Assembly: GCA_001296005.1 (NCBI GenBank)
Contig: LJHR01000005.1
Coordinates: forward strand, 62,001 to 126,000
Reading direction: 5' to 3'
DNA length: 64,000 nt
Source of the DNA: an alpha proteobacterium AAP38
Lineage (GTDB): Bacteria > Pseudomonadota > Alphaproteobacteria > Azospirillales > Azospirillaceae
A model generated the notes under the pieces. That model saw only the letters and a list, made by a program, of their open reading frames with translations. It did no database searches and was not told where the DNA came from. The position numbers were made by a program, and so were the translations under genes. Shown one piece after another: positions 7,765-28,682 of the stretch (position 1 is the stretch's first letter; each line of letters opens with the position of its first letter).

Positions 7765-7790
7765 GGAAAATATCTTCTAAATTTTTAGAA
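7765..7790 (+). promoter_or_regulatory. candidate RpiR/IolR-type operator and palindrome before the transporter operon
   Basis: GGAA-AATATC-TTCT (7765-7778, one mismatch to GGAA-N6-TTCC) overlaps a perfect palindrome TTCTAAATTTTTAGAA (7775-7790). The AT-rich block stands out from the GC-rich surroundings and lies about 60 nt before the chosen start of the MFS gene. Similar sites precede the TonB receptor, iolG, rpiR and iolC genes. Confidence 0.5.
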
Positions 7791-7851
7791 TATGGAATAT
7801 CTTGCCTTCCAACGCGACGGGATGAACCGTCCGGCTGGGGAGGAGAGCGCC

Positions 7852-9198
7852 ATGCTGCGCGCGTTGCTGGGCTTTTTCGCCACGGGGCCTGACCGCCCGG
7901 TGACGGCGGACGCGGCGGCGGTCGATGCCGCCTATCGCCGTTACCGCATCCGGGTGATGCTGGCCATCACGCTGGGCTACGGCCTGATCTATACCTGCCG
8001 GCTGGCGCTGGGGGTGGTGAAGAAGCCGCTGATCGATGCGGGTGTATTCTCACCGGCGGAACTGGGCCATATCGGATCGGCCCTGTTCTACACCTATGCC
8101 ATCGGCAAGCTGACCAACGGGTTTCTGGCAGATCACGCCAATATCCGCCGCGCGCTGGTGGTAACCTTCCTGCTGACGGCGCTGTGCAACCTGACCATGG
8201 GATTTGTCACCAGCGTCTGGATGGCTGTCCTGGTCTGGGGCCTGAATGGCTGGTTCCAGAGTTTCGGGGCGCCGGGTGGCGTGGTGGCCATGACGGCCTG
8301 GTTTTCAAATCGGGAGCGGGGCCGCGCCTATGGCGTCTGGTCCACGGCCCATTCCATCGGGGAGGGTTTGACCTTCCTGGTCGTGGGTTCACTGGTCGGC
8401 TGGCTGGGCTGGCAGGCTGGGTTCTTCGGGCCGGGCCTGATCGGCATCGCGACCGCCGCCGGTGTCTGGTTCCTGTTGCAGGACCGGCCGCAGACGCTGG
8501 GCCTGCCGCCCGTCAATGACTGGAAGGGCGACCATTACGGGGAAAAGCCCAAGGCCGACCCGCGTTCCGTCCTGGCTCAGCAGCTGCACATCCTGAAGCT
8601 GCCGGCCATCTGGGTTCTGTGTCTGGCGTCGGCCACCACCTATGTCACCCGTTACGCCATCAATTCCTGGGGCGTCCTGTATTTGCAGGAGGCGCGGGGC
8701 TATTCCCTGGCCATGGCGGGCACGCTGCTGATGGTCAGCACCGTGGCCGGCATTGTCGGCGCTATCAGCTTCGGCCTGTTGTCCGACAAGCTTTTCCAGT
8801 CGCGCCGCCCGCCGGCCAACCTGTTGTTCGGTGTGCTGGAACTGATCGGCATGCTGCTGATCTTCTTCGGACCGAACAGCGTGCCGCTGCTGCTGCTGGG
8901 CATGGTGCTGTTCGGGGCTGGCATGACGGGGCTTGTCACCTCCCTGGGCGGGCTGTTCGCCGTCGATATCGCGCCCAAGCGGGTGGCAGGCGCGGCGATG
9001 GGTGTCATCGGCATTTTCAGCTATGTCGGGGCGGCCCTGCAGGAACATGTTTCCGGCATGCTGATCGACCGTGGCATGACCATGGTGGACGGGGTCCGGC
9101 ATTACGATTTCGGCCCGGTGATCTGGTTCTGGATCGCCGCGTCGGTGGTTTCCATGGTTTTGGCGGCGACCCTGTGGCGCACGCGATTGAGGGACTGA
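7852..9198 (+). CDS. MFS transporter, organophosphate:phosphate antiporter-like
   Basis: 448 residues from ATG 7852, preferred because GGGGAGGAGAG lies just upstream, whereas the in-frame ATG 7792 overlaps the operator palindrome. Twelve hydrophobic segments are discernible; the GYGLIYTCRLALGVVKKPLI opening, WFQSFGAPGGVV and the NRERGRAYGVWSTAHSIGEG loop are typical of the GlpT/UhpC (OPA) branch. OPA members exchange phosphate for organic phosphates. It heads a three-gene operon with inositol monophosphatase (6-nt gap) and PhoD, so an inositol (mono)phosphate or inositol import role is plausible. UhpC-like sensor function is possible but no cognate kinase is adjacent. Confidence 0.8.
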   Translation: MLRALLGFFATGPDRPVTADAAAVDAAYRRYRIRVMLAITLGYGLIYTCRLALGVVKKPLIDAGVFSPAELGHIGSALFYTYAIGKLTNGFLADHANIRRALVVTFLLTALCNLTMGFVTSVWMAVLVWGLNGWFQSFGAPGGVVAMTAWFSNRERGRAYGVWSTAHSIGEGLTFLVVGSLVGWLGWQAGFFGPGLIGIATAAGVWFLLQDRPQTLGLPPVNDWKGDHYGEKPKADPRSVLAQQLHILKLPAIWVLCLASATTYVTRYAINSWGVLYLQEARGYSLAMAGTLLMVSTVAGIVGAISFGLLSDKLFQSRRPPANLLFGVLELIGMLLIFFGPNSVPLLLLGMVLFGAGMTGLVTSLGGLFAVDIAPKRVAGAAMGVIGIFSYVGAALQEHVSGMLIDRGMTMVDGVRHYDFGPVIWFWIAASVVSMVLAATLWRTRLRD

Positions 9199-9204
9199 TC
9201 CATC

Positions 9205-10023
9205 ATGAATTCCCCATCCCCCGAACTGTCGGCGATGATCGATGCGGCCCAGGCCGCCGGTCACGGGCTTCTGCGCCGCTTCTCGCAACTGTCCGAACTG
9301 GTCATCCGCGCCAAAAGCGGACCGGCGGACCTTGTCTCCGTCGCGGATGAGGAGGCGGAGCAGACGGCCCGCACCATCCTGTCCCGCTTCCGCCCCGACT
9401 ACGCTTTCCTGGGTGAGGAAGGCGGACAGGTCGGGGGCCGTGACGCCAGCCACAGTTGGATCGTCGATCCGCTGGATGGCACCACAAACTTCCTGTTCTC
9501 CTGTCCGCTCTGGGGCGTCAACGTCGCCCTGGCGCGCGATGGAGAGGTGGTGGCTGGTGTCACCTACATCCCCGTGATGGAAGAGATGTTTGTGGCGGAG
9601 AAGGGGCGCGGGGCCTGGCTGAATGGCCGGCGCATCCATGTCTCCACCCGTGCCACGCTGGGTGACGCGGTGCTGTCCTGCGGCATGCCGTTCGCGGGCA
9701 AGCCCGATCATCCGGTCTTTGCCCGTGAAATGGCGCTTCTGTCGGCGGATGTCGCGGGTCTGCGCCGCACGGGTGCCTGTGCGGTCGATATGGCCTATGT
9801 CGCGTGTGGCCGCTGGGATGCGTACTGGGAACGCGCGCTGAACGCCTGGGACATGGCACCCGGTTTGATCCTGGCGACGGAGGCCGGTGGCACCATCAGC
9901 AATGTGCGGGGTGACAGGCTGGATCTTCATGGCCAGAATGTCTGCATCAGCAATGGCCGCATCCACACCGCCCTGGTGGACCGGCTGAACCAAGCCCTGC
10001 ACGAAGCCCAGAACGAAGGATAA
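9205..10023 (+). CDS. inositol monophosphatase family protein
   Basis: 272 residues, the normal IMPase length. Metal-site motifs are all present: FLGEEGG (~residue 68), IVDPLDGTTNFLF (~residues 86-98) and AWDMAPG (~residue 215). The family hydrolyses myo-inositol monophosphates or related sugar/nucleoside phosphates with Mg2+ in the cytoplasm. Position between an organophosphate-type transporter and PhoD, within a cluster for inositol catabolism, supports true inositol-phosphate hydrolysis rather than the general SuhB role. Histidinol-phosphatase or fructose-bisphosphatase activity within the family cannot be excluded from sequence alone. Confidence 0.88.
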   Translation: MNSPSPELSAMIDAAQAAGHGLLRRFSQLSELVIRAKSGPADLVSVADEEAEQTARTILSRFRPDYAFLGEEGGQVGGRDASHSWIVDPLDGTTNFLFSCPLWGVNVALARDGEVVAGVTYIPVMEEMFVAEKGRGAWLNGRRIHVSTRATLGDAVLSCGMPFAGKPDHPVFAREMALLSADVAGLRRTGACAVDMAYVACGRWDAYWERALNAWDMAPGLILATEAGGTISNVRGDRLDLHGQNVCISNGRIHTALVDRLNQALHEAQNEG

Positions 10024-10028
10024 GCAGT

Positions 10029-11486
10029 ATGCGTTTCCATGGCAGCCGGCGGCAGTTTCTGGCCGGCACGACATCGCTGGCCGGTGTGTCTCTGTGGCCG
10101 GCGGCTGGGCTGGCGGCGGTGCTGGGTTACCCGCGCGCCCTGCAGGGGCCGATGGTGGGCGCGCCTGGCCCCGGCCATGTCACCGTCTGGGTCCGGGCCA
10201 GCGGGGCCTTTGATGTCACGCTGGAGGTGGCGGCGGAGCGGACCTTCGCCAAGGTCATCGCCACGCAGACGGTGCGGGCACGCTCAGAGGATGATTGCTG
10301 CGTCACCCTGCGCGCCGAAGGGTTGAAGCCGGCCACCACCTACTGGTACCGGTTGAAGTTTGATGGTCAGCTGGACCGTGAACAGCCTTTCCCCTATCGC
10401 ACGCGCACCGCACCCGCCGGCAAGGCCGATTTCCGCATCGCCTTCGGGTCCTGCTGCCGTATCCAGTTTGACGGCGAACAGCCCATCTGGTCGGTGGTGC
10501 AGGCGCTGGAGCCGGACATGTTCTTCTGGCTGGGCGACAATATCTATGGCGACAGCGACGAGCCGGCGGCATTGGCCGAGCTGTATGGGCGAGAACGGCT
10601 GATCCGCCGCCTGGAACCGCTGCTGCGCGGCACACCGCAACTGGCCATCTGGGACGATCATGATTTCGGCTATAACGGATCGGACGGCACCAGCCCCTAC
10701 AAGGACAGTTCGCTAAACGTGTTCCGCCATTACTGGCCCAATCCGTCCTTTGGGCAGGCGGACAGCAAGGGTGTCTATTTCAAGCAATCCTATGGTGGGG
10801 TGGATTTCTTCTTCCTGGATGGCCGCTATTACCGCGATCCCACCGACAATCGCGACGATGCCGGCAAGACCATGCTGGGCGCCGCACAGAAGGCGTGGCT
10901 GAAAGCCGGGCTGCTGGAAAGCAAGGCGATATTCAAGGTGCTGGTTTCTGGCACCGGATGGTCCACGGCGGAGAATGAAAAGGGCGGCGACAGCTGGGGC
11001 GTGTTCATGACGGAGCGGAACGAGATTTTCGATTTCGTGCGCGACCGGAACATTGGCGGTGTCGTCTGCATCTCCGGCGACAGCCATATGGGTGAGCTGA
11101 ACTGTATCCCCCGGTCCGCCCATGGCGGGTACGACATCTATGATCTCTGCTCCTCGCCGCTTGCCCAGATGCCGGCCACCAAGAACCTGCGCCAGATGCC
11201 GGAGGTGCGTATCCGCGACACCTGGAACCGCAGCGTCAATGTCGGGGTGCTGGATTTCCAGATGGGCGACAAGCCCAGCCTGACCATGACCCTGTATGAC
11301 GTATCGGGCGCGCGCGTCTGGGAACCGCTGGTCCTGACACCGGCCGACCTGACCAATGGTAAGCGCACCTGGGACGTGAAGGCCGATCCGGGCGAACTGA
11401 AGCGTCTGGAGCGGTTCCGCAAGGGTGGGGGCTATTACGGGACCGACATGCCGGAAGGCTGGCCAGAGAAGCCCTATTACCAGTGA
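10029..11486 (+). CDS. phoD: PhoD-type alkaline phosphatase, Tat-exported
   Basis: 485 residues. The N-terminus has a twin-arginine signal (SRRQFLAGTTSLAG) of about 35 residues. A fibronectin-like PhoD_N domain follows, then the catalytic domain with FGSCCRIQ, FFWLGDNIYGD (~residue 172), AIWDDHDFGYNGSDG (~residue 210) and CISGDSHMGE (~residue 345), the metal ligands of PhoD. It would cleave phosphate mono- or diesters in the periplasm using Ca2+/Fe3+. Third gene of the transporter-IMPase operon (5-nt gap). It may complete extracytoplasmic dephosphorylation of inositol phosphates; direct phytase activity is not implied. Confidence 0.87.
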   Translation: MRFHGSRRQFLAGTTSLAGVSLWPAAGLAAVLGYPRALQGPMVGAPGPGHVTVWVRASGAFDVTLEVAAERTFAKVIATQTVRARSEDDCCVTLRAEGLKPATTYWYRLKFDGQLDREQPFPYRTRTAPAGKADFRIAFGSCCRIQFDGEQPIWSVVQALEPDMFFWLGDNIYGDSDEPAALAELYGRERLIRRLEPLLRGTPQLAIWDDHDFGYNGSDGTSPYKDSSLNVFRHYWPNPSFGQADSKGVYFKQSYGGVDFFFLDGRYYRDPTDNRDDAGKTMLGAAQKAWLKAGLLESKAIFKVLVSGTGWSTAENEKGGDSWGVFMTERNEIFDFVRDRNIGGVVCISGDSHMGELNCIPRSAHGGYDIYDLCSSPLAQMPATKNLRQMPEVRIRDTWNRSVNVGVLDFQMGDKPSLTMTLYDVSGARVWEPLVLTPADLTNGKRTWDVKADPGELKRLERFRKGGGYYGTDMPEGWPEKPYYQ

Positions 11487-11492
11487 GTACAG

Positions 11493-11515
11493 GGGCGGCG
11501 CGTCAGGCGCCGCCC
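11493..11515. terminator. convergent hairpin between phoD and tpiA
   Basis: Perfect 9-bp GC stem GGGCGGCGC/GCGCCGCCC with a 5-nt loop that contains the tpiA stop codon. There is no U-tract, so termination efficiency is uncertain. Confidence 0.4.
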
Positions 11516-12255
11516 AGCCCGGCAAGCGCAATAGCCTTGAAATCTGCGGGTTTCAGGCTGGCCCCGCCCACCAGCACCCCATCCACGCCGGGCAGGTGCA
11601 GGATGCTGGCGGCGTTGGCCGCCGTCACTGATCCCCCGTAAAGCACGCGGACATCCCCGCCACCCGGCAGCAGCGTGGCAAGTTCTGCCTTGATCAGCGC
11701 ATGCATGCCGGCGATGGTACCGGCATCCGCATGACGGCCCGTACCGATGGCCCAGACGGGTTCATAGGCGATGATGACGCTGTCCGCATCCATACCGGGC
11801 GGCAGACTGTCGCGCAGTTGCCGGGCCACGATGGTGCTGGCCAATCCCGCCTCCCGCTCCACCAGTGTTTCCCCGATACAGATCAGGGGGCGAAGCCCGG
11901 ACGACAGGGCTGCCGCTGCCTTGGCTGCTACCAGGGCGCTGTCTTCCCCCTGTGACCGCCGTTCGGAATGGCCCAGGATGACATGACTGGCCCCGGCATC
12001 GGCCAGCATGGCGGCGGAAAGATCGCCCGTATGGGCGCCAGACGCCCGGTGATGGCAATCCTGCGCGCCGACCAGCAACGGCCCGGACCCCGCCAGCGCG
12101 GTGATATCGGACAGCAGGGTGGCGGGTGGACAGATCAGCATCTGCACCCCTGGCCGCACCGTTTCCAGCCATTCCGCAAGGTCGCGCGCCAGGGTCAGCC
12201 CATCGGCGCGCAGCCCATTCATTTTCCAGTTCCCCGCGATAAATGGAACGCTCAT
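11503..12255 (-). CDS. tpiA: triosephosphate isomerase
   Basis: 250 residues. Start ATG at 12255 gives the family N-terminus PFIAGNWKMNG and has GGAGGTGATG immediately upstream; a longer in-frame extension is not homologous. Catalytic residues are visible: Asn/Lys in GNWKMN, His in LGHSERR, Glu in AYEPVWAIGTG, and the phosphate loop YGGSV. It interconverts DHAP and glyceraldehyde 3-phosphate. Placement beside the inositol phosphate operon fits processing of DHAP produced by 5-dehydro-2-deoxyphosphogluconate aldolase; it may be a dedicated second copy beside a housekeeping tpiA elsewhere, which this window cannot test. Confidence 0.92.
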   Translation of the reverse strand: MSVPFIAGNWKMNGLRADGLTLARDLAEWLETVRPGVQMLICPPATLLSDITALAGSGPLLVGAQDCHHRASGAHTGDLSAAMLADAGASHVILGHSERRSQGEDSALVAAKAAAALSSGLRPLICIGETLVEREAGLASTIVARQLRDSLPPGMDADSVIIAYEPVWAIGTGRHADAGTIAGMHALIKAELATLLPGGGDVRVLYGGSVTAANAASILHLPGVDGVLVGGASLKPADFKAIALAGLGGA

Positions 12256-12259
12256 TTCA

Positions 12260-12445
12260 TCACCTCCGCACCGTCTTGGTCCTTTTAGGGGCCATGGGAA
12301 TGACCCGTGCCATGCCCAGGCGTCCGGGGGATTGCCCCGCCTGACGCAGGATTTCAGCCAGATGATGGCCGGCATCCTTATCACCTGGCGGGTGCAGGAT
12401 CGTCACTTTCTGCATACGGATCATAGGGTTGCGTACCCTGGCCAT
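12260..12445 (-). CDS. possible 61-residue small ORF upstream of tpiA
   Basis: A short frame from ATG 12445, with GGAG 7 nt before it, ends at 12260 so that its TGA lies inside the tpiA ribosome-binding region, an arrangement that would allow translational coupling. The peptide is basic at its C-terminus and I recognise no family. It could equally be a chance frame in the tpiA leader, so it is reported only as a candidate. Confidence 0.25.
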   Translation of the reverse strand: MARVRNPMIRMQKVTILHPPGDKDAGHHLAEILRQAGQSPGRLGMARVIPMAPKRTKTVRR

Positions 12446-12496
12446 GGGACTGCTCCGGCATTGTCGGGGGAAGGGGAGGGCGCCCGAGGCGTCCGT

Positions 12497-12510
12497 GGAA
12501 TGCAAATTCC
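12497..12510. promoter_or_regulatory. perfect GGAA-N6-TTCC site between tpiA and the TonB receptor gene
   Basis: GGAA-TGCAAA-TTCC matches exactly the inverted half-site pattern I recall as reported for RpiR-type IolR in alphaproteobacteria. It sits in the divergent region and could act on tpiA, the receptor gene, or both. Confidence 0.55.
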
Positions 12511-12549
12511 ATCGGCCCGTAAAAAAATACAAGAAAAATTCCATTTCTG

Positions 12550-12578
12550 TTGACGAATGGAATTTTCGTTCATAAGAT
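12550..12578 (+). promoter_or_regulatory. sigma70-type promoter of the TonB receptor with operator-like inverted repeat
   Basis: TTGACG (12550-12555), 17-nt spacer, TAAGAT (12573-12578): a near-consensus housekeeping promoter. The spacer carries GGAA-TTTTCG-TTCA (12559-12572), and a larger imperfect inverted repeat (arms 12533-12545 and 12556-12567, around AATTCCATT/AATGGAATT) brackets the -35 box, so a bound repressor would block RNA polymerase. Confidence 0.6.
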
Positions 12579-12906
12579 CACATCAACAATCGACACCGAT
12601 GGTGATTCTGATCCGGATCAGCCATCACAATAACAATTCAGGGAGACAATGATGCCCAGGAACAGAAGGGCTGGTCGTGGCAGACGACAGCACCCAACCA
12701 CACGGTCGAATGCATGTTCCCACCGCCCTGGTGGCGGATAAGGGGAACTGCGGACCTGTGCATTGCATGGATGTTCCGCAATCGCTTGCAATGAAGAATT
12801 CATGGGGATGGCGCAGCGCCTTCGCAGATGGCGGCCAGAAGCAAGGCCAGGATGCCTTGCCACTTTTTGCATCCCCGTTTGAAGATCAGCCTTTCTGGAG
12901 ATGACA
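12579..12906 (+). other. long untranslated leader of the TonB receptor gene
   Basis: About 320 nt separate the predicted promoter from the receptor start with no convincing gene. It includes a perfect 14-bp palindrome CTGATCCGGATCAG (12608-12621) close to the expected transcription start, and stem-forming stretches around 12745-12790. Nothing else is recognisable. Confidence 0.4.
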
Positions 12907-15465
12907 ATGACGCCGTCGAAGAAAACTGGCGCGCTGCTGACCACCCGGCTTGTGGGTTGCGTCAGCCTGTTGGCCCTGTCCGCCGCCACCCTGTCCCAGG
13001 CTGCCGCGCAGTCCGCGCCGCCGACAGGTGAAATGCTGGAGGAAATCCAGGTCACGGGCATGCGTCTGGCCGAAAAGAAGGCCCTGGAGCTGAAGCAGAA
13101 CGCCGTGGGCATCGTCGATGCCGTGGTGGCCGATGATGTCGGCAAGCTGCCGGACCAGAATGTGGCCGAAGCCATCAAGCGCCTGCCCGGCCTGTCGGTC
13201 GCCAACGATCAGGGCGAAGGCCGCTATGTCATCATCCGCGGCGTCAGCCCCGATCTGGCCAATGTCACCCTGAATGGCCAGACGGCGGCCGCACCAGAAC
13301 CGGCGGGCCGGTCGGTGAAGCTGGACGATATTCCGTCGGCCATGATCGGGTCGGTGGAAGTGGTGAAAAGCCTGACGCCCGACCGCGACGCCAACGCCAT
13401 CGCCGGTCAGGTGAACATCAATACGGTCAGCGCCTTTGACCGGAACAAGTTCTTCGCGACGGCCCGTGGCAGCATCGGCCAGTACCAGTTGAACAAGAAG
13501 CATCCGTTCGGCGGCGATGTCACCGTGGGTGACATCTTCGGTGATGATCGGCAGTTCGGTCTGGTCCTGTCCGCCAATTATGATGAACGGCCCATCCGGT
13601 CGGAGAATGTGCAGGGTTCCACCAACTGGCGCACCGTGGGCGGCTATGCCATTCCGGACGATTTCCGTCCGCGCGAATATAACCTGACCCGCAAGCGCAT
13701 TGGCGGCGTTGCCAATTTCGATTGGAACGTCAACGATACCACCAAGCTGTATCTGCGCAGTTCCTACGCCGAATATTCCGACAGCGAGGTGCGTGACCAG
13801 TTCCGTGTGGAAATCCCCACCACCATCACGGCGCAGACGGCCACCACCGGCAGTTTCCGGGCGCGCGGCACCCGGTTTGTGCGGGTGCGTGAGGAGGATG
13901 ACAATACCGTCACCGCTAATGCCGGTGGCAAATTCGAGATCGGCGAGGGCACGCTGGAGGTGGACGCCACCTATACCCGCGCCGTGAAGGAAGACCCGCT
14001 GCGCAGCGAATGGCAGTTCCGCACCGGCTCCAACGCCTTCACCGCCACCTTTGATACGACCAGCGACATCTATCAGGTGACGCCAGCGGCAGAGGCCTAT
14101 AACGCCGCGCTGTATGGCGCGCGCTCTGTTTCCTACGACCATCGCAAGGCGGAGGAGAATCTTTACCAGTATCGGGCCGATTACAAGTTGCCCGTGGAAC
14201 TGGGTGATGATGCCTTCGTGAAGGTCGGCGCCAAGTATCTGTCGCGGCACAAATCCAACAATCGCGATTATGAAAGCTATGATGCCACCGGCTTCACCCT
14301 GGCCGCGGTGACGGCGGAGACGACGGGCCGCGCCGTATTCGGCGGGCGGTTCCCCATCGATCCGCGCGTGGACTATGACGCCGCAGAGGCCTATGCCGCG
14401 TCCCATGCGGGTTCGCTGACCTATAGCCGGTCGGGTTCCATCTCCAACACCCTGGCCAATGATTATAAGGTGACGGAGGATGTCACGGCGGCCTATGCCA
14501 TGACGTCGATCACCTTTGACCGGCTGACCTTGATCCCCGGCGTGCGTATGGAACATACGCAGGGTGACTTCGCGGCCAAGATCATCAATGCCGCCTCCAC
14601 CCCTGCCCAGGATTTCAATTCCTTCGGCAAGAGCAGCTATACCGACTGGTTCCCCGGTATCAATGCGCGCTTCGATGTGAATGAACGTTTCATCCTGCGC
14701 GGTGCCGTGACCACGGCCATTGGCCGTCCCAACTATGCCGACCTGCCGCCCTTCATCTCCGTCGATACGGGTGCCGCCAGTGTCAGCAAAGGTAATCCTG
14801 ACCTGACGCCGCTGAAGGCTGTGAATTTCGATCTGTCGGTCGAATATTACATGCCCAGTGAGGGCGTGCTGTCGGTGGCGCTGTTCCAGAAGGACATCGA
14901 CAACCCGATCTACAGTCAGGCTATCACCGTTACCAACGGCACCTTTGGCGGCATCACCCTGCCGACCGCCCTGGTCACCACGCCGCTGAATGCCAAGTCG
15001 GCCACCGTGAAGGGTGTGGAGGTGAATGCCAGCATCCAGGGCACCTTCCTGCCGTCACCCTTCGACGGGCTGGGCGTGCAGGGCAACCTGACCCTGACGG
15101 ACAGCAAGTCCAAGGGCGTGCTGGGCCGCACCGACACGCTGCCCATGTTCAGCCAATCCAAGCGCGTGGCATCGGCGCAGGTCTATTATGAAAAGGAGGG
15201 GCTGTCGGCCCGCGTCGCCTACTCCTACCGTTCGCCCTTCCTGGATACGGTCGGGGCCAACAAGGCGACCGATATCTATACCGACAGCAACGGATCGATG
15301 GATGCCCGCCTGGGCTACAATTTCACCAAGCAGCTTGAGGTGTATCTGGAAGGGGCGAACCTGACCGATGCCAAGTTCCGCCGCTATATCGGTGTGAAGC
15401 ATCAGATGGCAGAGGCCGAGCGTTATGGCCGGTCGGTTAAGCTGGGCGCGCAGTTCAAATACTGA
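12907..15465 (+). CDS. TonB-dependent receptor (TIGR01782-like), probable inositol phosphate uptake
   Basis: 852 residues from ATG 12907; ATG 12901 directly abuts GGAG and is too close. Signal peptide to about residue 34 (ending AAAQS), a TonB-box-like EEIQVTG, plug domain with DDVGKLPDQNVAEAIKRLPGLSV and RYVIIRGVSPDLANVTLNGQ, and a 22-strand barrel ending in the aromatic C-terminus (GAQFKY). This subfamily is expanded in alphaproteobacteria for import of carbohydrates and other large nutrients. A phytase-type phosphatase follows 69 nt later, and an inositol-regulon-like promoter precedes it, so phytate or an inositol polyphosphate is the likely ligand (inference). Confidence 0.88.
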   Translation: MTPSKKTGALLTTRLVGCVSLLALSAATLSQAAAQSAPPTGEMLEEIQVTGMRLAEKKALELKQNAVGIVDAVVADDVGKLPDQNVAEAIKRLPGLSVANDQGEGRYVIIRGVSPDLANVTLNGQTAAAPEPAGRSVKLDDIPSAMIGSVEVVKSLTPDRDANAIAGQVNINTVSAFDRNKFFATARGSIGQYQLNKKHPFGGDVTVGDIFGDDRQFGLVLSANYDERPIRSENVQGSTNWRTVGGYAIPDDFRPREYNLTRKRIGGVANFDWNVNDTTKLYLRSSYAEYSDSEVRDQFRVEIPTTITAQTATTGSFRARGTRFVRVREEDDNTVTANAGGKFEIGEGTLEVDATYTRAVKEDPLRSEWQFRTGSNAFTATFDTTSDIYQVTPAAEAYNAALYGARSVSYDHRKAEENLYQYRADYKLPVELGDDAFVKVGAKYLSRHKSNNRDYESYDATGFTLAAVTAETTGRAVFGGRFPIDPRVDYDAAEAYAASHAGSLTYSRSGSISNTLANDYKVTEDVTAAYAMTSITFDRLTLIPGVRMEHTQGDFAAKIINAASTPAQDFNSFGKSSYTDWFPGINARFDVNERFILRGAVTTAIGRPNYADLPPFISVDTGAASVSKGNPDLTPLKAVNFDLSVEYYMPSEGVLSVALFQKDIDNPIYSQAITVTNGTFGGITLPTALVTTPLNAKSATVKGVEVNASIQGTFLPSPFDGLGVQGNLTLTDSKSKGVLGRTDTLPMFSQSKRVASAQVYYEKEGLSARVAYSYRSPFLDTVGANKATDIYTDSNGSMDARLGYNFTKQLEVYLEGANLTDAKFRRYIGVKHQMAEAERYGRSVKLGAQFKY

Positions 15466-15480
15466 TGCACCGTCCCTGTG

Positions 15481-15507
15481 ACCCCGGCGGTGATTGGCCG
15501 CCGGGGT
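15481..15507 (+). terminator. hairpin between TonB receptor and phosphatase genes
   Basis: Perfect 10-bp stem ACCCCGGCGG/CCGCCGGGGT with a 7-nt loop, 16 nt after the receptor stop and followed by TTTCCTTG. It may be a leaky terminator setting receptor:enzyme ratios or a 3'-end stabiliser. Confidence 0.6.
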
Positions 15508-15534
15508 TTCCTTGTCCGACAGAGGGGAAACCCC

Positions 15535-19112: not shown

Positions 19113-19146
19113 AGAATAAAAATTCCTTCCATTTAAAAAATAGAAT
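19113..19146 (-). promoter_or_regulatory. operator/promoter element upstream of iolG
   Basis: On the + strand AGAA-TAAAAA-TTCC (19113-19126) is one base off GGAA-N6-TTCC. Read on the minus strand, 19146-19127 gives ATTCTATTTTTTAAATGGAA, which recurs with one T fewer at 20141-20159 before iolC. The shared 20-nt block directed towards each operon implies a common regulatory signal. Confidence 0.55.
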
Positions 19147-19185: not shown

Positions 19186-19199
19186 GGAACGGATATTCT
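19186..19199 (+). promoter_or_regulatory. candidate autoregulatory site before the rpiR-type gene
   Basis: GGAA-CGGATA-TTCT, one mismatch to the GGAA-N6-TTCC pattern, 31 nt before the regulator's start codon. Binding here would repress the regulator's own gene. Confidence 0.45.
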
Positions 19200-19230
19200 A
19201 TCTGAAGGCGTGTTGGAACCGAGGGGCAAG

Positions 19231-20127: not shown

Positions 20128-20140
20128 TGGTGGAGTTTTC

Positions 20141-20169
20141 ATTCTATTTTTAAATGGAATGAAATTTCC
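20141..20169 (+). promoter_or_regulatory. operator with perfect GGAA-N6-TTCC before iolC
   Basis: GGAA-TGAAAT-TTCC at 20156-20169 directly follows the conserved block ATTCTATTTTTAAATGGAA (20141-20159). TTGCAT (20171-20176) and TAGCTA (20194-20199) with a 17-nt spacer form a possible promoter just downstream. Located 90 nt before the iolC start. Confidence 0.6.
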
Positions 20170-22184: not shown

Positions 22185-24022
22185 AAACGATCCGACTGAC
22201 CGCTGCCCAGGCCACGGTACGCTGGCTGGCGGCGCAGAGGGTGGAAGGGGAAGGGGGGCCCATCCCCTTCTTCGCCGGGGTCTGGGCCATCTTCGGCCAT
22301 GGCAATGTTGCCGGCCTGGGGGAGGCATTGCACGGCATCGGCGACGCCCTGCCCACCTACCGCGCGCATAATGAACAGGGCATGGCCCATGCCGCCATCG
22401 CCTTTGCCAAGGCCAGCAACCGCCGCCGGGCCATGGTCTGCACCAGTTCCATTGGCCCCGGCGCCACCAACATGGTGACCGCGGCGGCGCTGGCCCATGT
22501 CAACCGCCTGCCGGTGCTGTTCCTGCCCGGTGATGTCTTCGCCAGCCGGCGGCCCGACCCGGTGTTGCAGCAGGTGGAGGATTTTGGCGACGGCACCGTA
22601 TCGGCCAACGATTGCTTCCGGCCCGTCAGCCGCTATTTCGACCGCATCGTGCGACCGGAACAGCTGCTGGACGCGCTGCCCCGCGCCATGGCGGTGCTGA
22701 CCGATCCGGCGGATTGCGGGCCGGTGACGCTGGCCTTCTGTCAGGATACGCAGGCCGAAGCCTATGACTGGCCCGAACGCTTCTTTGAGGAACGCGTCTG
22801 GCATTTCCGGCGGGTGGAACCGGACCCGCGCGAACTGTCGCTGCTGCGCGACCGGTTGGCCAAGGCCGAACGGCCCCTGATCATCGCCGGCGGCGGGGTG
22901 CATTATGCCGGGGCGGCGGGGATATTGGCGGATTTCGCCCGTGCGACCGGCGTACCGGTAGCGGAGACGCAGGCCGGCAAGGGCGCCTTGCCCTGGGACC
23001 ATCCGGCCAATCTGGGCGCCATCGGTGTGACGGGCAGCGAGGCGGCGAACAAGGCGGCGGATGCGGCCGACTTGATCATTGGCATCGGCACGCGTCTGGC
23101 CGATTTCACCACCGGTTCGCGCCGCCTGATCCATAATCAGGGTCGTGATCTGGTGCAGGTGAATGTCGCCGCCTTCGACGCCCATAAGCATGGCGCCCTG
23201 CCGGTGGTGGGTGATGCGGGCCGGGTTCTGGAACGGTTGATGACGGGTCTGTCGGGTTGGACCGCACCCGCCGGCTGGGTAGCGTCGCTGAGCGATGCCC
23301 GCGCGGCCTGGGATGCAAAGGTCGAAAGCGTGACCGCCCCGCCCGCCGGTGCCGGCCTGCCCACCGATGCACAGGTGATCGGCGCGGTACAGCGGTCCGC
23401 CGCCGATGACGCCATCATGGTCTGTGCCGCCGGTGGCCTGCCGGGTGACTTGCACAAGCTGTGGCGCGTGCATCGGCCCGGCGGATACCATATGGAATAT
23501 GGCTATTCCTGCATGGGGTACGAAATCGCCGGCGGTGTCGGCGCGGCCATGGCACAGCCGGATCGGCCCGTGCATGTCATGGTGGGCGACGGTTCCTACC
23601 TGATGATGAATTCCGAACTTGCCGTGTCGGTCATGCTGGGAACCAAGCTGATCATCACCTTGCTGGATAATCGTGGTTTCGGCTGTATCAACCGGTTGCA
23701 GGCGGCAACGGGTGGTGCGCCCTTTAACAACCTGCTGGCCGATGCCCGCCACCGGGACATGCCCCGCATTGATTTCGCCGCCCACGCCGCCAGCCTGGGT
23801 GCCATCGCGGAAAAGGTGGCGGATATCGCCGAACTGGAAGCGGCCCTGGCCCGCGCGCGTCAGGCCGACCGCTCCACGGTGATCGTCATCGATACCGACC
23901 CGCGCCCGTCCGATGCTGGCGGCGGGGCCTGGTGGGATGTGGCCGTGCCGGAGACATCATCGCTTGAGCAGGTGCGCCAGGCGCGCGCCGCCTATCAAAC
24001 CAAGATCAATGAAGGTCTGTGA
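22181..24022 (+). CDS. iolD: 3D-(3,5/4)-trihydroxycyclohexane-1,2-dione hydrolase
   Basis: 613 residues, full-length IolD. ThDP-dependent fold: the N-terminal PYR domain has YRAHNEQGMAHAAIAFAKA with the cofactor Glu, the central domain IIAGGGVHYAGAAG, and the C-terminal PP domain the Mg-binding GDGSYLMMNSELAVSV...LLDN motif. It opens the six-carbon ring of the dione made by IolE, giving 5-deoxyglucuronate. ATG overlaps the iolC stop (ATGA), showing tight translational coupling. Acetolactate synthase is the usual misannotation; length and context favour IolD. Confidence 0.93.
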   Translation: MKTIRLTAAQATVRWLAAQRVEGEGGPIPFFAGVWAIFGHGNVAGLGEALHGIGDALPTYRAHNEQGMAHAAIAFAKASNRRRAMVCTSSIGPGATNMVTAAALAHVNRLPVLFLPGDVFASRRPDPVLQQVEDFGDGTVSANDCFRPVSRYFDRIVRPEQLLDALPRAMAVLTDPADCGPVTLAFCQDTQAEAYDWPERFFEERVWHFRRVEPDPRELSLLRDRLAKAERPLIIAGGGVHYAGAAGILADFARATGVPVAETQAGKGALPWDHPANLGAIGVTGSEAANKAADAADLIIGIGTRLADFTTGSRRLIHNQGRDLVQVNVAAFDAHKHGALPVVGDAGRVLERLMTGLSGWTAPAGWVASLSDARAAWDAKVESVTAPPAGAGLPTDAQVIGAVQRSAADDAIMVCAAGGLPGDLHKLWRVHRPGGYHMEYGYSCMGYEIAGGVGAAMAQPDRPVHVMVGDGSYLMMNSELAVSVMLGTKLIITLLDNRGFGCINRLQAATGGAPFNNLLADARHRDMPRIDFAAHAASLGAIAEKVADIAELEAALARARQADRSTVIVIDTDPRPSDAGGGAWWDVAVPETSSLEQVRQARAAYQTKINEGL

Positions 24023-24024
24023 TC

Positions 24025-24933
24025 ATGAGCATTCGTTTCGGCGTCAGCCCCATTGCCTGGATCAATGACGACATGCCCGAATTGGGCGGCGATACCCCGC
24101 TCTCCACGGTCCTGTCGGACACGGCCGAGATTGGTTTTACCGGGATCGAACTGGGCGGGCGCTTCCCGCGTGATCCCGCCGCGCTGCATGACCTGTTGGG
24201 CAGCTACGGCTTGGACCTTGTCGGCGGCTGGTACAGCGGCAATCTGCTGACCCAGGATGCCGATGCCGAGATCGCGGCGCTTCAGCCGCATCTGGCGCTG
24301 CTGAAGGCGCTGGGCACCGATGTCTTCGTCTTTGCCGAAACCAGCAACGCCATCCATTGCCGCAAGGAAATCCCCCTGAACGACACACCGTCCCTGACGG
24401 AGGCCCAATGGGTGCAGTTCGGCGCGCGGCTGACCGCCGTGTCGGATTATCTGAAGGGCCAGGGCATGCGCATGGCCTATCACCACCACCTGGGCACGGT
24501 CGTGGAACGGCCATCCGACATGGTTGCCTTCCTGAGCCATACCGGATCCAGCGTCGGCCTGACCGTCGATACGGGCCACGCCGTGCTGGGCGGTGTCGAT
24601 CCGCTGGCCCTGCTGCGCGACCATCCCGAACGCGTGGCCCATGTCCATTGCAAGGATGTGCGCAACGATGTCTTTGCCCGCGTGCGTGAAACGGGGATGA
24701 GCTTCTTGGATGGCGTCCTGGCCGGCATGTTTACGGTCCCCGGCGATGGCAGCATCGATTTCGCCGCCGTTATGCGTACCCTGGCCGATATCGGCTATAG
24801 CGGCTGGGTGATTGTGGAGGCTGAACAGGACCCCGCCATCGCCCCGCCCGCCCAGTATGGCCGCATCGGCATCCGCACCTTGGCCGAGGCCGCGGGGTCT
24901 GCGGGCCTGAATGTTGTGGGGAGGGGGGCATGA
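24025..24933 (+). CDS. iolE: myo-inosose-2 dehydratase
   Basis: 302 residues, AP-endonuclease-2/xylose-isomerase-like TIM barrel. Characteristic stretches are FGVSPIAWINDDMPELGGDTPL at the start, AYHHHLGTVVE (~residue 153), TVDTGHAVLGG and HVHCKDVR, which supply metal ligands. It dehydrates scyllo-inosose to the dione used by IolD. I used ATG 24025; a GTG two codons earlier overlaps iolD. The 3' end overlaps iolB by 4 nt, consistent with one polycistronic message. Confidence 0.92.
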   Translation: MSIRFGVSPIAWINDDMPELGGDTPLSTVLSDTAEIGFTGIELGGRFPRDPAALHDLLGSYGLDLVGGWYSGNLLTQDADAEIAALQPHLALLKALGTDVFVFAETSNAIHCRKEIPLNDTPSLTEAQWVQFGARLTAVSDYLKGQGMRMAYHHHLGTVVERPSDMVAFLSHTGSSVGLTVDTGHAVLGGVDPLALLRDHPERVAHVHCKDVRNDVFARVRETGMSFLDGVLAGMFTVPGDGSIDFAAVMRTLADIGYSGWVIVEAEQDPAIAPPAQYGRIGIRTLAEAAGSAGLNVVGRGA

Positions 24934-25736
24934 GCCGGCTGCGTGTCCGCCCCACGGCCCCCGATGCCGATGGCCGCACCCTGTCGGTGACCCCGGAAAG
25001 TGCGGGCTGGGGTCATGTCGGCTTTGCCCTGCACCGGTTGGCGCCGGGACAAAGCGTGTCGGGGCTGGAACCGGACCGAGAGCTTTGCCTGGTGCTGGTG
25101 GCCGGTACGGCGCGCATCATGGCGGGTGATGCCGATCTGGGCCTGACCGGCGGGCGCGAAAGCCCGTTTGTCGATGCCGCCCCTGGTGCCGCCTATATCC
25201 CCGCCGGGGCGCCCTACACCGTTACAGCGGAGGGTCCGGTCGAACTGGCTGTCTGTTCGGCACCCGGCCGGCCCGGTGGTGATGCTCGGCTGATCGAACC
25301 GGCCCGCATGGGGCGGGAGGTACGCGGTCAGGGCACCAACACTCGCCATGTGCGCAACATCCTGCCCGAGGGCGAACCCGCCGACAGCCTGCTGGTGGTG
25401 GAGGTGGTCACGCCCGGCGGCCACTGGTCCAGCTATCCCCCGCACAAGCATGATACGGCGCGGGAGCAGGAAACGCTGCTGGAGGAAACCTATTACCACC
25501 GCCTGAACCCGCCCCAGGGTTTCGCGTTCCAGCGTGTCTATACCGATGACCGGTCGCTGGATGAGACAGTGTGCGTGGAGGATGGCGATGTGGTGATGGT
25601 ACCGCGCGGGTACCATCCCGTCGGCGCCCCCCATGGCTATGATCTTTATTACCTGAATGTGATGGCGGGGCCGGAGCGCAAATGGCGTTTCCATAATGAC
25701 CCCGCCCATGAATGGATCATCACGGGACCGCGCTGA
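24930..25736 (+). CDS. iolB: 5-deoxy-glucuronate isomerase
   Basis: 268 residues with the bicupin IolB fold: LCLVLVAGTARIMAG and YIPAGAPYTVTA in the N-terminal cupin, then YPPHKHDT (metal His), EETYYHRLNPPQGFAFQRVYTDD and VPRGYHPVGAPHGYDLYYLNVMAG, which are strongly conserved in IolB. It converts 5-deoxyglucuronate to 5-dehydro-2-deoxygluconate, the IolC substrate. Its ATGA start overlaps iolE. There is a 34-nt gap to iolA. Confidence 0.93.
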   Translation: MSRLRVRPTAPDADGRTLSVTPESAGWGHVGFALHRLAPGQSVSGLEPDRELCLVLVAGTARIMAGDADLGLTGGRESPFVDAAPGAAYIPAGAPYTVTAEGPVELAVCSAPGRPGGDARLIEPARMGREVRGQGTNTRHVRNILPEGEPADSLLVVEVVTPGGHWSSYPPHKHDTAREQETLLEETYYHRLNPPQGFAFQRVYTDDRSLDETVCVEDGDVVMVPRGYHPVGAPHGYDLYYLNVMAGPERKWRFHNDPAHEWIITGPR

Positions 25737-25770
25737 ACCGCCGTTTCCCGTCAAATCAGGAACCTGAACG

Positions 25771-27273
25771 ATGCGCGAGATTTCGCATTTCATCGATGGG
25801 CAGCGCGTGCCCGGACGGTCGGGCCGTTACGCCGATGTGTTCGACCCCAATTCCGGTCAGGTGCAGGCCCGTGTGGCGTTGGCCAGCGGCGGTGAACTGG
25901 ACGCGGCCATCGCGTCTGCCGCCCGTGCGCAGCCGGCCTGGGCCGCCATGAACCCGCAGCGCCGGGCGCGTGTGATGTTCAATTTCAAGCACCTGCTTGA
26001 AAAGCACATGGACGAGCTGGCCCATCTGCTGTCGTCCGAACATGGCAAGGTCATCGCCGATGCCAAGGGCGATATTCAGCGCGGGCTGGAGGTGATTGAG
26101 TTCGTCTGCGGCATCCCGCATCTGCTGAAGGGTGATTATACCCAGGGTGCAGGGCCGGGCATCGATGTCTATTCCATGCGCCAGCCCTTGGGCGTGGTGG
26201 CCGGCATCACACCGTTCAACTTTCCGGCCATGATCCCGCTCTGGATGTTGGGGCCGGCGGTGGCGGCGGGCAATGCTTTCATCCTGAAACCGTCGGAACG
26301 CGACCCGTCGGTGCCGGTCCGGCTGGCCGAACTGCTGATGGAGGCGGGGTTACCGCCCGGCATCGTCAATGTGGTGCAGGGCGACAAGGAGGTGGTGGAA
26401 GGCATTCTGGATCACCCAACCATCCGCGCCGTCAGCTTTGTCGGGTCCAGCGATATTGCCCATTCCGTCTACAATCGCGGTTCGGCTGCCGGCAAGCGCA
26501 TGCAGTGCATGGGCGGGGCCAAGAACCATGGCATCGTTCTGCCCGACGCCGATCTGGATCAGGCCGTGGCCGATATCATCGGCGCGGCCTATGGCTCCGC
26601 CGGGGAACGCTGCATGGCCCTGCCCGTGGTGGTGCCGGTCGGCGAACGCACGGCCCTGGCCCTGCGCGACAAGCTGGTGGCGGCCATCGGCGGCCTGCGC
26701 GTCGGCGTTTCCACCGATGAACAGGCCCATTACGGCCCCGTTGTCACTGCCCAGCACAAGGCCCGCATCGAACGCTATATCGCGATGGGGGTGGAGGAAG
26801 GGGCCGATCTGGTGGTCGACGGGCGGGGATTGAGCCTGCAGGGCCATGAGGAAGGCTATTTCCTGGGTCCTACCCTGTTCGATCATGTGAAGGCCGACAT
26901 GCAGGCCTATCGCGATGAAATCTTTGGCCCCGTGCTGCAGATCGTGCGTGCCGACAGCTTTGCCGAGGCCATCAGCCTGCCGACCCGGCACGCATACGGA
27001 AACGGTGTCGCGATCTTTACCGCCAATGGCGATGCGGCCCGCGAATTCGCCGATCAGGTGGAGATCGGCATGGTCGGCATCAATGTGCCGATCCCGGTGC
27101 CCGTCGCCTATCACAGCTTCGGCGGCTGGAAACGGTCGGGTTTCGGTGACCTGAACCAGTATGGCATCGACGGCATCCGTTTCTTCACCCGCACCAAGAC
27201 CGTGACCCAGCGTTGGCCCCGCCGCCAGGGCGCGGTTGTGGACCAGAGCTTTGTGATCCCGACGATGCGCTAA
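25771..27273 (+). CDS. iolA: (methyl)malonate-semialdehyde dehydrogenase, CoA-acylating
   Basis: 500 residues of the ALDH superfamily. It shows ITPFNFPAMIPLWML, FVGSSDIAHSVYNRG for NAD binding, GSAGERCMALPVVVPVG with the catalytic Cys (~residue 285), and PYGNGVA-type C-terminal segments (HAYGNGVAIFTANGDAAREF). MmsA/IolA enzymes oxidise malonate or methylmalonate semialdehyde with CoA to acetyl- or propionyl-CoA. Placement as last iol gene makes malonate semialdehyde the expected substrate; valine catabolism would be the alternative role. Confidence 0.92.
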   Translation: MREISHFIDGQRVPGRSGRYADVFDPNSGQVQARVALASGGELDAAIASAARAQPAWAAMNPQRRARVMFNFKHLLEKHMDELAHLLSSEHGKVIADAKGDIQRGLEVIEFVCGIPHLLKGDYTQGAGPGIDVYSMRQPLGVVAGITPFNFPAMIPLWMLGPAVAAGNAFILKPSERDPSVPVRLAELLMEAGLPPGIVNVVQGDKEVVEGILDHPTIRAVSFVGSSDIAHSVYNRGSAAGKRMQCMGGAKNHGIVLPDADLDQAVADIIGAAYGSAGERCMALPVVVPVGERTALALRDKLVAAIGGLRVGVSTDEQAHYGPVVTAQHKARIERYIAMGVEEGADLVVDGRGLSLQGHEEGYFLGPTLFDHVKADMQAYRDEIFGPVLQIVRADSFAEAISLPTRHAYGNGVAIFTANGDAAREFADQVEIGMVGINVPIPVPVAYHSFGGWKRSGFGDLNQYGIDGIRFFTRTKTVTQRWPRRQGAVVDQSFVIPTMR

Positions 27274-27350
27274 GCCCGCATCCTGGGCCAACCCCCATGG
27301 CAGGGGGGCTTTCCCTTACAAAAATCCTCAAGGAATGGGAGACAAAGACC

Positions 27351-28682
27351 ATGCGTGCCCTGATCCCGATTGCAGCCCTGCTGCTGCTCGTTGCCTGCGG
27401 GCAGGAAAAGCCGGTTGTCCCGATGGCGACGGCCAGTCTTCCCCTGGTCAAGCCGGTGGCGGAAACCGCCCCCGGTCTGCCAGACAGCGTGCAGACCGGT
27501 GATGCCGATGATCCATCCTTCTGGCTGCATCCCACGGATCCCGCCAAAAGCCTGGTCATCGCGGCGGTGAAGGGATCGGGGCTGCGGGTCTATGATTTGG
27601 CTGGCAAGCTGGTGCAGCGGATCGATGCGCAGCCGGATGGCCGCTATAACAATATCGATGTGGCCTATGGGCTGAAGCGTGCCGACGGTTCCACCATCGA
27701 CATTGCGGTCGCCAGCGACCGGGGCCGCGACCGTCTGGTGGTCTGGGCCATTGATCCGGCCAACCCGGATGCCCCGCTGACCGATGTCAGCGATCCGAAC
27801 CAGGGTCCGGTCTTCCCCACCCGCCTGTCACAGGATGGGAAAAGCGAGATCGACAATCCTGTGGCAGATCAAGTCAGCGCCTATGGCCTGACCCTGTGGC
27901 AGGACAAGGCAACGGGGGAGGTGCGAGCCGTGGTGGCGCAGCGCAAGGCAGCGCGGCTGGCCGAACAGCGTCTGGTCGTGAAGCCCGACGGGACCGTGGG
28001 CCATGAACGCGCCCGCCACTGGGATTTTCCCACCAGCCACAAGGGCCAGGATTTGTGGGCGGAGCATGATACCGATCCCGAACAGGATTGGTCACCGCAG
28101 TTCGAGGGGCTGGTAGTGGACGCCGAAGCCGGCATCCTGTTCGCAGGCCAGGAGGATGTGGGCCTGTGGCGCGTCAACCTGACCACCGGCAAGGCCGACG
28201 ACAAGCCCTTCTATGAAACGCGCGGATCGGTGAAAAGCCCGTTCAACAATCCCGACAGCAAGGTGGCCCGCGATGTCGAAGGTCTGGCGCTCTATCGTGG
28301 GGCTGATGGTACCGGCTACCTGATCGCGTCCAGTCAGGGTGATGCGCATGGCGATGGCGGTCATTCGGACAATGGTGGCCTGGATGACAGCTTCGCGATC
28401 TTTGAACGCGGCGGGCAGAACCGCTATCTGGGCAGTTTCAAGCTGACGGCCAATGGCGCCATTGATGCCGGCCAGGAATGCGACGGGGCCGAACTGGTCT
28501 CCATCCCCTTGCCTGGCTATCCCAACGGCTTGCTGATGGTGCAGGACGGGTACAATGATGACCTGAACGGCATGAGCGGGGACCCGAAGGCCACCAATTT
28601 CAAATATGTCTCCTGGGCCGATGTCATGGCCGCCCTGCCGGGCACCTTGACGGTACCGGCAGGGGGCTGGTCACCGCGATAG
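27351..28682 (+). CDS. 3-phytase, beta-propeller type, lipoprotein
   Basis: 443 residues. Start ATG 27351 gives a lipoprotein signal with lipobox LVAC (Cys ~16) and is preceded by GGAGACAAAG; a longer frame overlaps iolA. The mature part is the six-bladed beta-propeller phytase domain: ADDPSFWLHPTDPAKSLVIA, GLRVYDLAGK, RYNNIDVAYG, AYGLTLW, QFEGLVVDAEAGILFAGQEDVGLWR and ARDVEGLALY, containing the acidic Ca2+-binding residues. It hydrolyses phytate from the cell surface or periplasmic face of the membrane. This is a second phytase family, unrelated to the histidine acid phosphatase at 15535. A weak CCCCC/GGGGG hairpin sits at 27292-27307. Confidence 0.88.
   Translation: MRALIPIAALLLLVACGQEKPVVPMATASLPLVKPVAETAPGLPDSVQTGDADDPSFWLHPTDPAKSLVIAAVKGSGLRVYDLAGKLVQRIDAQPDGRYNNIDVAYGLKRADGSTIDIAVASDRGRDRLVVWAIDPANPDAPLTDVSDPNQGPVFPTRLSQDGKSEIDNPVADQVSAYGLTLWQDKATGEVRAVVAQRKAARLAEQRLVVKPDGTVGHERARHWDFPTSHKGQDLWAEHDTDPEQDWSPQFEGLVVDAEAGILFAGQEDVGLWRVNLTTGKADDKPFYETRGSVKSPFNNPDSKVARDVEGLALYRGADGTGYLIASSQGDAHGDGGHSDNGGLDDSFAIFERGGQNRYLGSFKLTANGAIDAGQECDGAELVSIPLPGYPNGLLMVQDGYNDDLNGMSGDPKATNFKYVSWADVMAALPGTLTVPAGGWSPR

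Follow-up and report, generated by a model that had tools for sequence, protein, structure and literature searches.

A putative phytate utilisation island arranged around a predicted inositol-phosphate:phosphate antiporter in a Niveispirillum-like alphaproteobacterium

Phytate is the main phosphorus store of seeds. Inositol phosphates make up a large share of soil organic phosphorus, according to the available part of one source (PMC4070688). Bacterial phytases have mostly been treated as phosphorus scavengers, and in the literature searched the entry of phytate carbon is little described. A locus of the alpha proteobacterium AAP38 (GCA_001296005.1), whose 5.78 Mb genome is close to Niveispirillum, raises the question of the form in which the inositol ring crosses the inner membrane. 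The window, which is the whole stretch of 64,000 nucleotides analysed here, covers positions 62,001-126,000 of contig LJHR01000005.1 (C45), and phytate and inositol genes are packed at positions 7,765-28,682 of it. Analysis of these genes and their relatives indicates that the island is probably a locus for the utilisation of both the carbon and the phosphorus of phytate, built around a carrier of the major facilitator superfamily (MFS) that is predicted to exchange an inositol phosphate for phosphate. The original prediction left the imported form as inositol or its monophosphate; the evidence presented below favours the phosphate ester. The genes are as follows.

7852..9198, plus strand: MFS carrier, predicted inositol-phosphate importer (PF07690, 164.9 bits)
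9205..10023, plus strand: inositol-monophosphatase-family phosphatase, IMPase (PF00459, 194 bits; matches SuhB/IMPase structures)
10029..11486, plus strand: PhoD-like phosphatase/phosphodiesterase (PF09423, 96.7 bits; PF16655, 49.6 bits; PDB PhoD 2yeq, E 2.4e-14)
11503..12255, minus strand: triose-phosphate isomerase gene tpiA (PF00121, 255.6 bits; start at 12,255 chosen by eye, MSVPFIAGNWKMNG)
12901..15465, plus strand: TonB-dependent receptor, TonB-Xanth-Caul (TIGR01782, 612 bits, cut-off 310)
15478..16815, plus strand: AppA-like histidine acid phosphatase, HAP (PF00328, 73 bits, cut-off 23.6)
17075..18055, minus strand: inositol 2-dehydrogenase IolG/IdhA (TIGR04380, 429 bits, cut-off 355)
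18073..19059, minus strand: second IolG-like dehydrogenase (TIGR04380, 349 bits, just below the cut-off of 355)
19210..20127, plus strand: iolR, RpiR-type regulator with HTH_6 and SIS domains (PF01418, 35.8 bits; PF01380, 70.4 bits)
20259..22184, plus strand: iolC kinase fused to a DUF2090 aldolase (NF047869, 762 bits, cut-off 600; PF09863, 418 bits)
22181..24022, plus strand: iolD (TIGR04377, 938.6 bits, cut-off 715)
24019..24933, plus strand: iolE (TIGR04379, 383.5 bits, cut-off 290)
24930..25736, plus strand: iolB (TIGR04378, 331.6 bits, cut-off 205)
25771..27273, plus strand: iolA, malonate-semialdehyde dehydrogenase type (TIGR01722, 653.6 bits, cut-off 448.5)
27351..28682, plus strand: beta-propeller phytase (PF02333, 172 bits, cut-off 21; Bacillus phytase in the PDB, E 8.7e-34)

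Open reading frames (ORFs), translations, Pfam and NCBIfam agree with the gene list and order of the original prediction, all members of which are present. The carrier, IMPase and PhoD genes form a unit with gaps of 6 and 5 bp, the ORFs of the TonB receptor and the HAP lie 12 bp apart, and iolC, iolD, iolE and iolB overlap one another, followed by iolA and then by the beta-propeller phytase gene. The IolC N-domain, IolD, IolE, IolB, the kinase/aldolase fusion and the IolA-type dehydrogenase all score above their NCBIfam cut-offs. By eye, the start at 7852 is preferred for the carrier, whose ORF opens at 7792; the phytase ORF opens at 27213, with the MRALIPIAALLLLVAC start at 27,351 preferred and a lipoprotein signal recognised by eye. 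The closest named relatives are Niveispirillum metagenome-assembled genomes, with carriers 96% identical (L004) and 99% identical over 350 residues (L007), and in another genome of this genus (G146) the carrier, iolD and the phytase share one contig with similar spacing.

Similarity search against the PDB revealed that the best solved relative of the carrier is GlpT (E 1.2e-51), and by its sequence the carrier belongs near the organophosphate:phosphate antiporters. It stays below all NCBIfam cut-offs, with UhpC as the best match (249 bits, cut-off 564), then TIGR00881 (243, cut-off 408) and GlpT (225, cut-off 633); PgtP (153 bits, cut-off 750) and UhpT (146 bits, cut-off 497) are not reached either. 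The pocket was compared over 77 aligned rows, that is, 76 ORFs from 75 of the 80 related loci described below plus the window carrier. In GlpT numbering, in which we take R45, H165 and R269 to be the phosphate-site positions, the residues R45, H165, R269, Y42, Y76, Y270 and Y393 are invariant in all 77 rows. Other pocket positions are exchanged just as regularly or nearly so: K46 to Leu and W138 to Ala or Ser in 77/77 rows each, E299 to Thr in 73 and Y362 to Thr, Ser or Asn in 74. The carrier thereby resembles GlpT, UhpT/UhpC, PgtP and SLC37 in sequence family and in the GlpT phosphate-site residues, but differs from them in having a pocket signature of its own and a gene context of inositol and phytase genes. 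Five plasmid-borne relatives stand at about 41% identity. The two inspected, on Plesiomonas and Vibrio plasmids, have R at the H165 position and adjoin genes for a regulator, an ATP-binding protein and a solute-binding protein in an arrangement resembling pgtABC, with a pyruvate kinase gene alongside, so that these nearest outside relatives also look like organophosphate carriers.

We propose that phytate, whether intact, partly dephosphorylated or bound to metal, would enter the periplasm through the TonB receptor. There the beta-propeller phytase lipoprotein, the AppA-like HAP and the Tat-exported PhoD would remove phosphates until inositol monophosphate is left. The carrier would then swap inositol monophosphate for inorganic phosphate across the inner membrane, and the IMPase, which by eye has no signal peptide and is presumably cytoplasmic, would release myo-inositol. 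IolG, IolE, IolD, IolB, the IolC-aldolase fusion and IolA are predicted to convert it to dihydroxyacetone phosphate (DHAP), CO2 and acetyl-CoA, a conversion that, as regards DHAP and acetyl-CoA, follows from established iol biochemistry, and the tpiA product of the island would pass DHAP to central metabolism. The RpiR-type IolR would repress the island units through GGAA-N6-TTCC sites. All substrates, directions and localisations in this scheme are predictions from sequence, and the import step is the newly proposed part of the pathway.

The gene neighbours of related carriers were compared over the best 80 of 377 related loci, picked on carrier similarity alone, many of which break off at contig ends. 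The carrier occurs in at least seven phylum-level groups, namely Pseudomonadota, Acidobacteriota, Verrucomicrobiota, KSB1, Ignavibacteriota, Fidelibacterota (Neomarinimicrobiota) and Bacteroidota, and the kin of the island among the 80 are mainly Lysobacterales, Caulobacteraceae, Sphingomonadales and Steroidobacteraceae together with several non-proteobacterial groups. Classic iolC/D/E genes stand in 50 of the 80 loci and the Thermotoga-type IolN/O in 10, with no locus having both; 61 loci have an iol-type gene of some kind, a tally that takes in L076 on an IolM-like match alone. An IMPase is present in 47 loci, PhoD in 36, and a TonB receptor of the window-like type in 18, of a second type (c0) in 26 and of either type in 41. 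Within the fetched flanks, 30 loci have a phytase (25 beta-propeller and 7 HAP, one HAP weak). The carrier-phytase distance, assuming one contig, is 12.0-14.9 kb in 21 of 23 cases, with 33.6 kb in L080 and 44 kb in L022; carrier and phytase are confirmed on one contig in L005, L013, L037 and L039, and also in G225. Each of five wider islands has a phytase 12-15 kb from the carrier, three of them with a HAP. The whole-genome count, made for 50 of the 80 loci after 26 on short contigs and four near-duplicates were set aside, found a beta-propeller phytase anywhere in the genome in 45 of 50. The link is not bound to the classic route: in a Holophagae locus (L066), IolG, IolM, IolN and IolO score above cut-off, and phytase, TonB receptor and carrier adjoin. 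A mere coincidence of families is rejected, as distant groups share the combination of carrier, phytase and inositol genes, and controls are low.

Two genome samples separate the carrier from inositol catabolism. The carrier was called at E ≤ 1e-140 and iolD at E ≤ 1e-150, thresholds so strict that divergent copies would go uncounted. Among 192 alphaproteobacteria, 2 have the carrier, 27 iolD and 9 a phytase; the phytase is found in 2/2 genomes with the carrier versus 7/190 without it, and in 0/25 with iolD but no carrier. The family of Luteimonas (119 genomes) has 3 carriers, 4 iolD genes and 5 full-length phytases, the latter being those with E < 1e-40 among 28 genomes with PF02333 matches at E ≤ 0.001; the remaining 23 matches are weak and partial and were not counted. 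Full-length phytase occurs here in 3/3 genomes with the carrier versus 2/116 without, where the three carrier genomes were known beforehand from the carrier search and one of them is the sample centre. All three have iolD too, and the sole carrier-less iolD genome is without a phytase match. Since iolD-only genomes are without phytase, the phytase tracks the carrier in both samples, not iol as such. A neighbourhood check in other Azospirillaceae, which the original prediction had recommended, gained little: G041, the single genome from another genus of the family in the class sample, has iolD without carrier or beta-propeller phytase. The two alphaproteobacterial carriers both belong to the window's genus, and in the tree the window carrier falls, with moderate support, among proteobacterial, mostly gammaproteobacterial, sequences; this position and the rarity in the class sample suggest a transfer into Niveispirillum.

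Two further arrangements point to the phosphorylated form. In Pleomorphomonas oryzae (L046), genes for a LacI-type regulator, an IMPase, the carrier and a HAP share one orientation, and the 21-kb locus has no iol gene; this is the minimum gene set expected for trimming of phytate, uptake of the product as a phosphate ester and its dephosphorylation in the cell. In seven loci of non-proteobacterial groups, and also in the wider Brevundimonas island L100/L101, the carrier stands together with a sugar-type ABC permease, which is easiest explained by each carrying a different form of inositol.

The available part of the Caulobacter study gives GGAA-N6-TTCC as an operator of the inositol module with an RpiR-type IolR (Boutte et al., PMC2597717). 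The window contains five exact copies versus 1.01 expected, a number reached by 0 of 100 shuffles; two are intergenic in the island, one lies within iolA (26,850) and two lie outside the island (5,367 and 63,311). The intergenic sites of the island are listed here.

7765..7778, plus strand: IolR-type operator with one mismatch (GGAAAATATCTTCT), upstream of the carrier
12497..12510, plus strand: exact IolR-type operator (GGAATGCAAATTCC), in the interval between tpiA and the TonB receptor
12559..12572, plus strand: IolR-type operator with one mismatch (GGAATTTTCGTTCA)
12707..12720, plus strand: IolR-type operator with one mismatch (CGAATGCATGTTCC)
19113..19126, plus strand: IolR-type operator with one mismatch (AGAATAAAAATTCC), in the interval between the dehydrogenases and iolR
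19186..19199, plus strand: IolR-type operator with one mismatch (GGAACGGATATTCT), ahead of iolR
20156..20169, plus strand: exact IolR-type operator (GGAATGAAATTTCC), ahead of iolC

The shared operator-like sites of the original prediction hold in part: two exact and five one-mismatch copies are intergenic in the island, and the other three exact copies are the one in iolA and the two outside the island. With up to one mismatch, 49 sites occur across the whole window, and lone one-mismatch copies are weak evidence because they also fall inside coding sequence. The stricter form GGAATNNAAWTTCC has three exact copies in the genome, two of them in the island, and with one mismatch occurs in 19 places versus 2 for the reversed pattern. 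The third exact copy (C20:22366) was set aside as chance, since it lies within an ORF in a locus that by eye has no inositol genes.

The site GGAAAATATCTTCT also stands upstream of the carrier in L004 and L007. Across the carrier loci, counted on crude ORF calls with genes close to contig ends skipped and with the L016 and L017 carriers identical, sites with up to one mismatch precede 31/77 carriers versus 86/615 other ORFs (p 1.6e-7, kinship ignored), although in several of the 31 that are outside proteobacteria the site looks like chance. The 31 carriers span 18 organism labels and hence do not represent one clone, though the loci are not independent. Sites also precede 24/42 iolC, 23/30 iolR, 18/42 iolA and 10/25 phytase genes, and 6/6 and 21/57 members of two dehydrogenase groups, and genes inside operons are at or below background (IMPase 2/31, PhoD 3/30, iolD 2/34, iolE 0/35). 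In both L024 and L044, the phytase and carrier genes diverge from an interval that holds one exact site. The earlier interpretation is supported in part: its central idea of a single locus leading from phytate to DHAP and acetyl-CoA withstood tests that might have contradicted it, namely the co-occurrence with phytase and with two unrelated inositol routes and the shared IolR-type sites. We lean slightly towards a broader proposal, that the carrier founds an unrecognised inositol-phosphate:phosphate antiporter subfamily marking a widespread, cross-phylum phytate-as-carbon system, coupled to two unrelated inositol routes and two unrelated phytases.

Several observations weigh against import of a phosphorylated inositol and its generality. 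The GlpT residues are not decisive, because human SLC37A4 is an organophosphate carrier as well and has M at the H165 position and K at the R269 position. The IMPase is below every NCBIfam equivalog cut-off (IMPase 170 bits, cut-off 332; HisN 172, cut-off 275), and AppA-type phytases stop at Ins(2)P, an isomer poorly cleaved by classical IMPases. The L046 HAP has SDTQ where the window HAP has HDTN. Five of the 50 carrier genomes are without a beta-propeller phytase, two of which (L046 and L072) have a HAP in the locus. Nineteen of the 80 loci have no iol-type gene, and five of these (L046, L062, L065, L079 and L081) cover the full 21 kb, so the carrier family may not have one function. As to regulation, sites before TonB receptors of the window's family are not enriched in relatives (3/15 vs 86/615, p 0.46), nor are they before HAP genes (0/5). 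Related genomes are not independent, and the p-values therefore overstate the strength of the evidence.

The alternative that survives best, which we nevertheless regard as unlikely, is that dephosphorylation is completed in the periplasm, the carrier imports free myo-inositol and the IMPase serves salvage or housekeeping. The few matches inspected in the window's own genome include no recognisable inositol transporter linked to iol genes, although a free-inositol importer may lie elsewhere in it, and inositol must have some carrier: of 29 places matching Sugar_tr (PF00083) the best was inspected and by eye lies beside pentose-type genes, and of 19 matching Peripla_BP_4 (PF13407) the best three were inspected, the top one by eye beside an arabinofuranosidase-like gene. 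In many loci the carrier follows iolA, and related MFS members carry non-phosphorylated acids, such as the D-galactonate carrier. A diverged PfkB-fold protein, which adjoins the carrier in 21 of the 80 loci (e.g. L024 11357-12250; L066 11361-12272), tells in the same direction. It never occurs with an IMPase among these loci; 7 of its loci have classic iol genes and 9 belong to the 10 IolN/O loci, where the IMPase is missing throughout. If it were a kinase acting on free inositol, these loci would favour import of the free form. Such import is at odds with the invariance of the GlpT phosphate-site residues over the 77 rows, with the IMPase in 47 carrier loci, and with the ABC permease that accompanies the carrier in seven loci and the wider Brevundimonas island.

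A clearly less probable origin of the substrate is phosphoinositide lipid. PhoD-type enzymes cleave phosphodiesters, and PhoD could act as a diesterase on glycerophosphoinositol or another phosphatidylinositol-derived phosphodiester, with the carrier importing glycerophosphoinositol or inositol phosphate. The presence of PhoD in 36 and of a calcineurin-like phosphoesterase in 6 of the 80 loci fits this proposal, as do the residues at the W138, E299 and Y362 positions, which are smaller than in GlpT and leave room for a larger ligand. It leaves unexplained, however, why 45 of 50 carrier genomes have a beta-propeller phytase and why L046 has its HAP-carrier-IMPase set, and no glycerol or glycerophosphodiester enzyme was matched among the scanned window ORFs (4,783-29,240).

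Least probable of all, if narrowly, is that the phytases and the receptor supply phosphate or iron and are no more than neighbours of an ordinary iol operon. In its favour, the available part of one study describes a TonB receptor-phytase pair whose expression is induced when phosphate is depleted (Fjoh_1367/1368, PMC8115612), the genome's second phytase by eye directly follows a TonB receptor gene, a FecR-like gene lying farther upstream (L093), and the carrier-phytase association could partly reflect shared inheritance. Against it, IolR-type sites stand ahead of the carrier and, where phytase and carrier genes diverge, in the interval between the two; the 25 carrier-less alphaproteobacteria with iolD have no beta-propeller phytase; and the link persists with the unrelated IolM/N/O route. 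That second beta-propeller phytase (L093 1950-5981, G000:C5) is 82% identical to the island phytase, and its setting suggests a separate copy for phosphorus or iron scavenging.

The remaining features of the island concern its individual proteins. PhoD has a Tat-like signal, RRQFL, by eye and does not reach the NCBIfam model AlkPhosPhoDBac (66 bits, cut-off 1000). The HAP matches PDB phytases (best E 6.5e-60) and shows RHGIRPP and HDTN in translation, RHGxRxP and HD being what we take as the motifs of AppA-type histidine acid phytases; it probably has a signal peptide from about 15535, judged by eye, and does not reach NCBIfam AppA (NF007552, 233 bits, cut-off 585). The TonB receptor has no solved relative at E 1e-10 in the PDB search. 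The tpiA gene encodes the genome's second triose-phosphate isomerase, the other copy being at G000:C29, and tpiA beside a TonB receptor recurs in Niveispirillum and Caulobacter loci (L036 19758-20561; L098 2804-3574). Many carrier-linked phytases are double-domain beta-propellers of about 690 residues (L024 7815-9860; L026 5120-7186; L031 12265-14364); that of the window is single-domain. A UhpC-type sensor role of the carrier is not favoured, as its neighbours in the window include no recognisable UhpB-like kinase. In relatives a signalling link may exist, with an OmpR-type response regulator (c2) near the carrier in 31/80 loci and a histidine kinase (c1) near it in many. Lysobacterales, Caulobacteraceae and sphingomonad loci often combine a PepSY protein, the OmpR-type regulator, the histidine kinase and the second TonB-receptor type near the carrier (L026 11347-15847; L094 4059-8546). 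Just upstream of the island, 4,783-7,674 encodes an FAD monooxygenase, an Amdase-like and a PuuE-like protein (below cut-off), resembling a separate ring-degradation cluster that looks unrelated.

TonB receptor-phytase pairs were reportedly described by Lim et al. in 2007. Rodionova et al. in 2013 are said to have described the Thermotoga maritima inositol route IolG/IolM/IolN/IolO with InoEFGK and to have proposed inositol phosphate as the imported form. The Thermotoga maritima system, whose IolM/N/O enzymes adjoin relatives of the window carrier, has an ABC importer instead of an MFS carrier and enzymes different from those of the window's iol route; the available part of PMC3750489 contains a reference to Rodionova et al. 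2013 and a transporter table for this route, and that of PMC5237526 names the KEGG ABC inositol-phosphate module. The Caulobacter crescentus myo-inositol module resembles the island in its IdhA/IolCDEBA enzymes, RpiR-type IolR and palindrome, but takes up free inositol through the IbpA-IatA-IatP ABC transporter from a separate locus; the words "TonB" and "phosphatase" are absent from its available text, and its authors raise the possibility that inositol phosphates are carried by a different ABC protein, CC1314 (PMC2597717). In Citromicrobium (PMC3400609) and Flavobacterium johnsoniae (Fjoh_1367/1368, PMC8115612) a receptor likewise adjoins a phytase, with phytate as proposed ligand, but the available parts of these papers tie no inositol catabolism, carrier or IMPase to the pair. 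A survey of inositol catabolic clusters covers those of the classic iol type and draws MFS genes in some of them, but in its available text "TonB" and "phosphatase" are absent and phytate figures as an upstream inositol source (PMC9430895).

Receptor-phytase pairs, iol clusters and an ABC module with an inositol-phosphate annotation are thus already known, judging from the available parts of these sources, and what would be new is the arrangement of known enzyme families around one predicted new transporter specificity. In line with the original view that the assembly is not a described system, neither the combined locus nor a bacterial inositol-phosphate antiporter was found described in the open literature searched, subscription journals lying mostly outside that search.

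If the prediction is true, the inositol ring is captured while still phosphorylated, and its import is paid for by phosphate exchange. The prediction supplies a specific inner-membrane importer, and a marker gene with an operator, for bacteria that would eat the inositol ring of phytate, and it gives a loosely defined trait the shape of a testable pathway in the cultured genera Niveispirillum, Luteimonas, Caulobacter and Pleomorphomonas.

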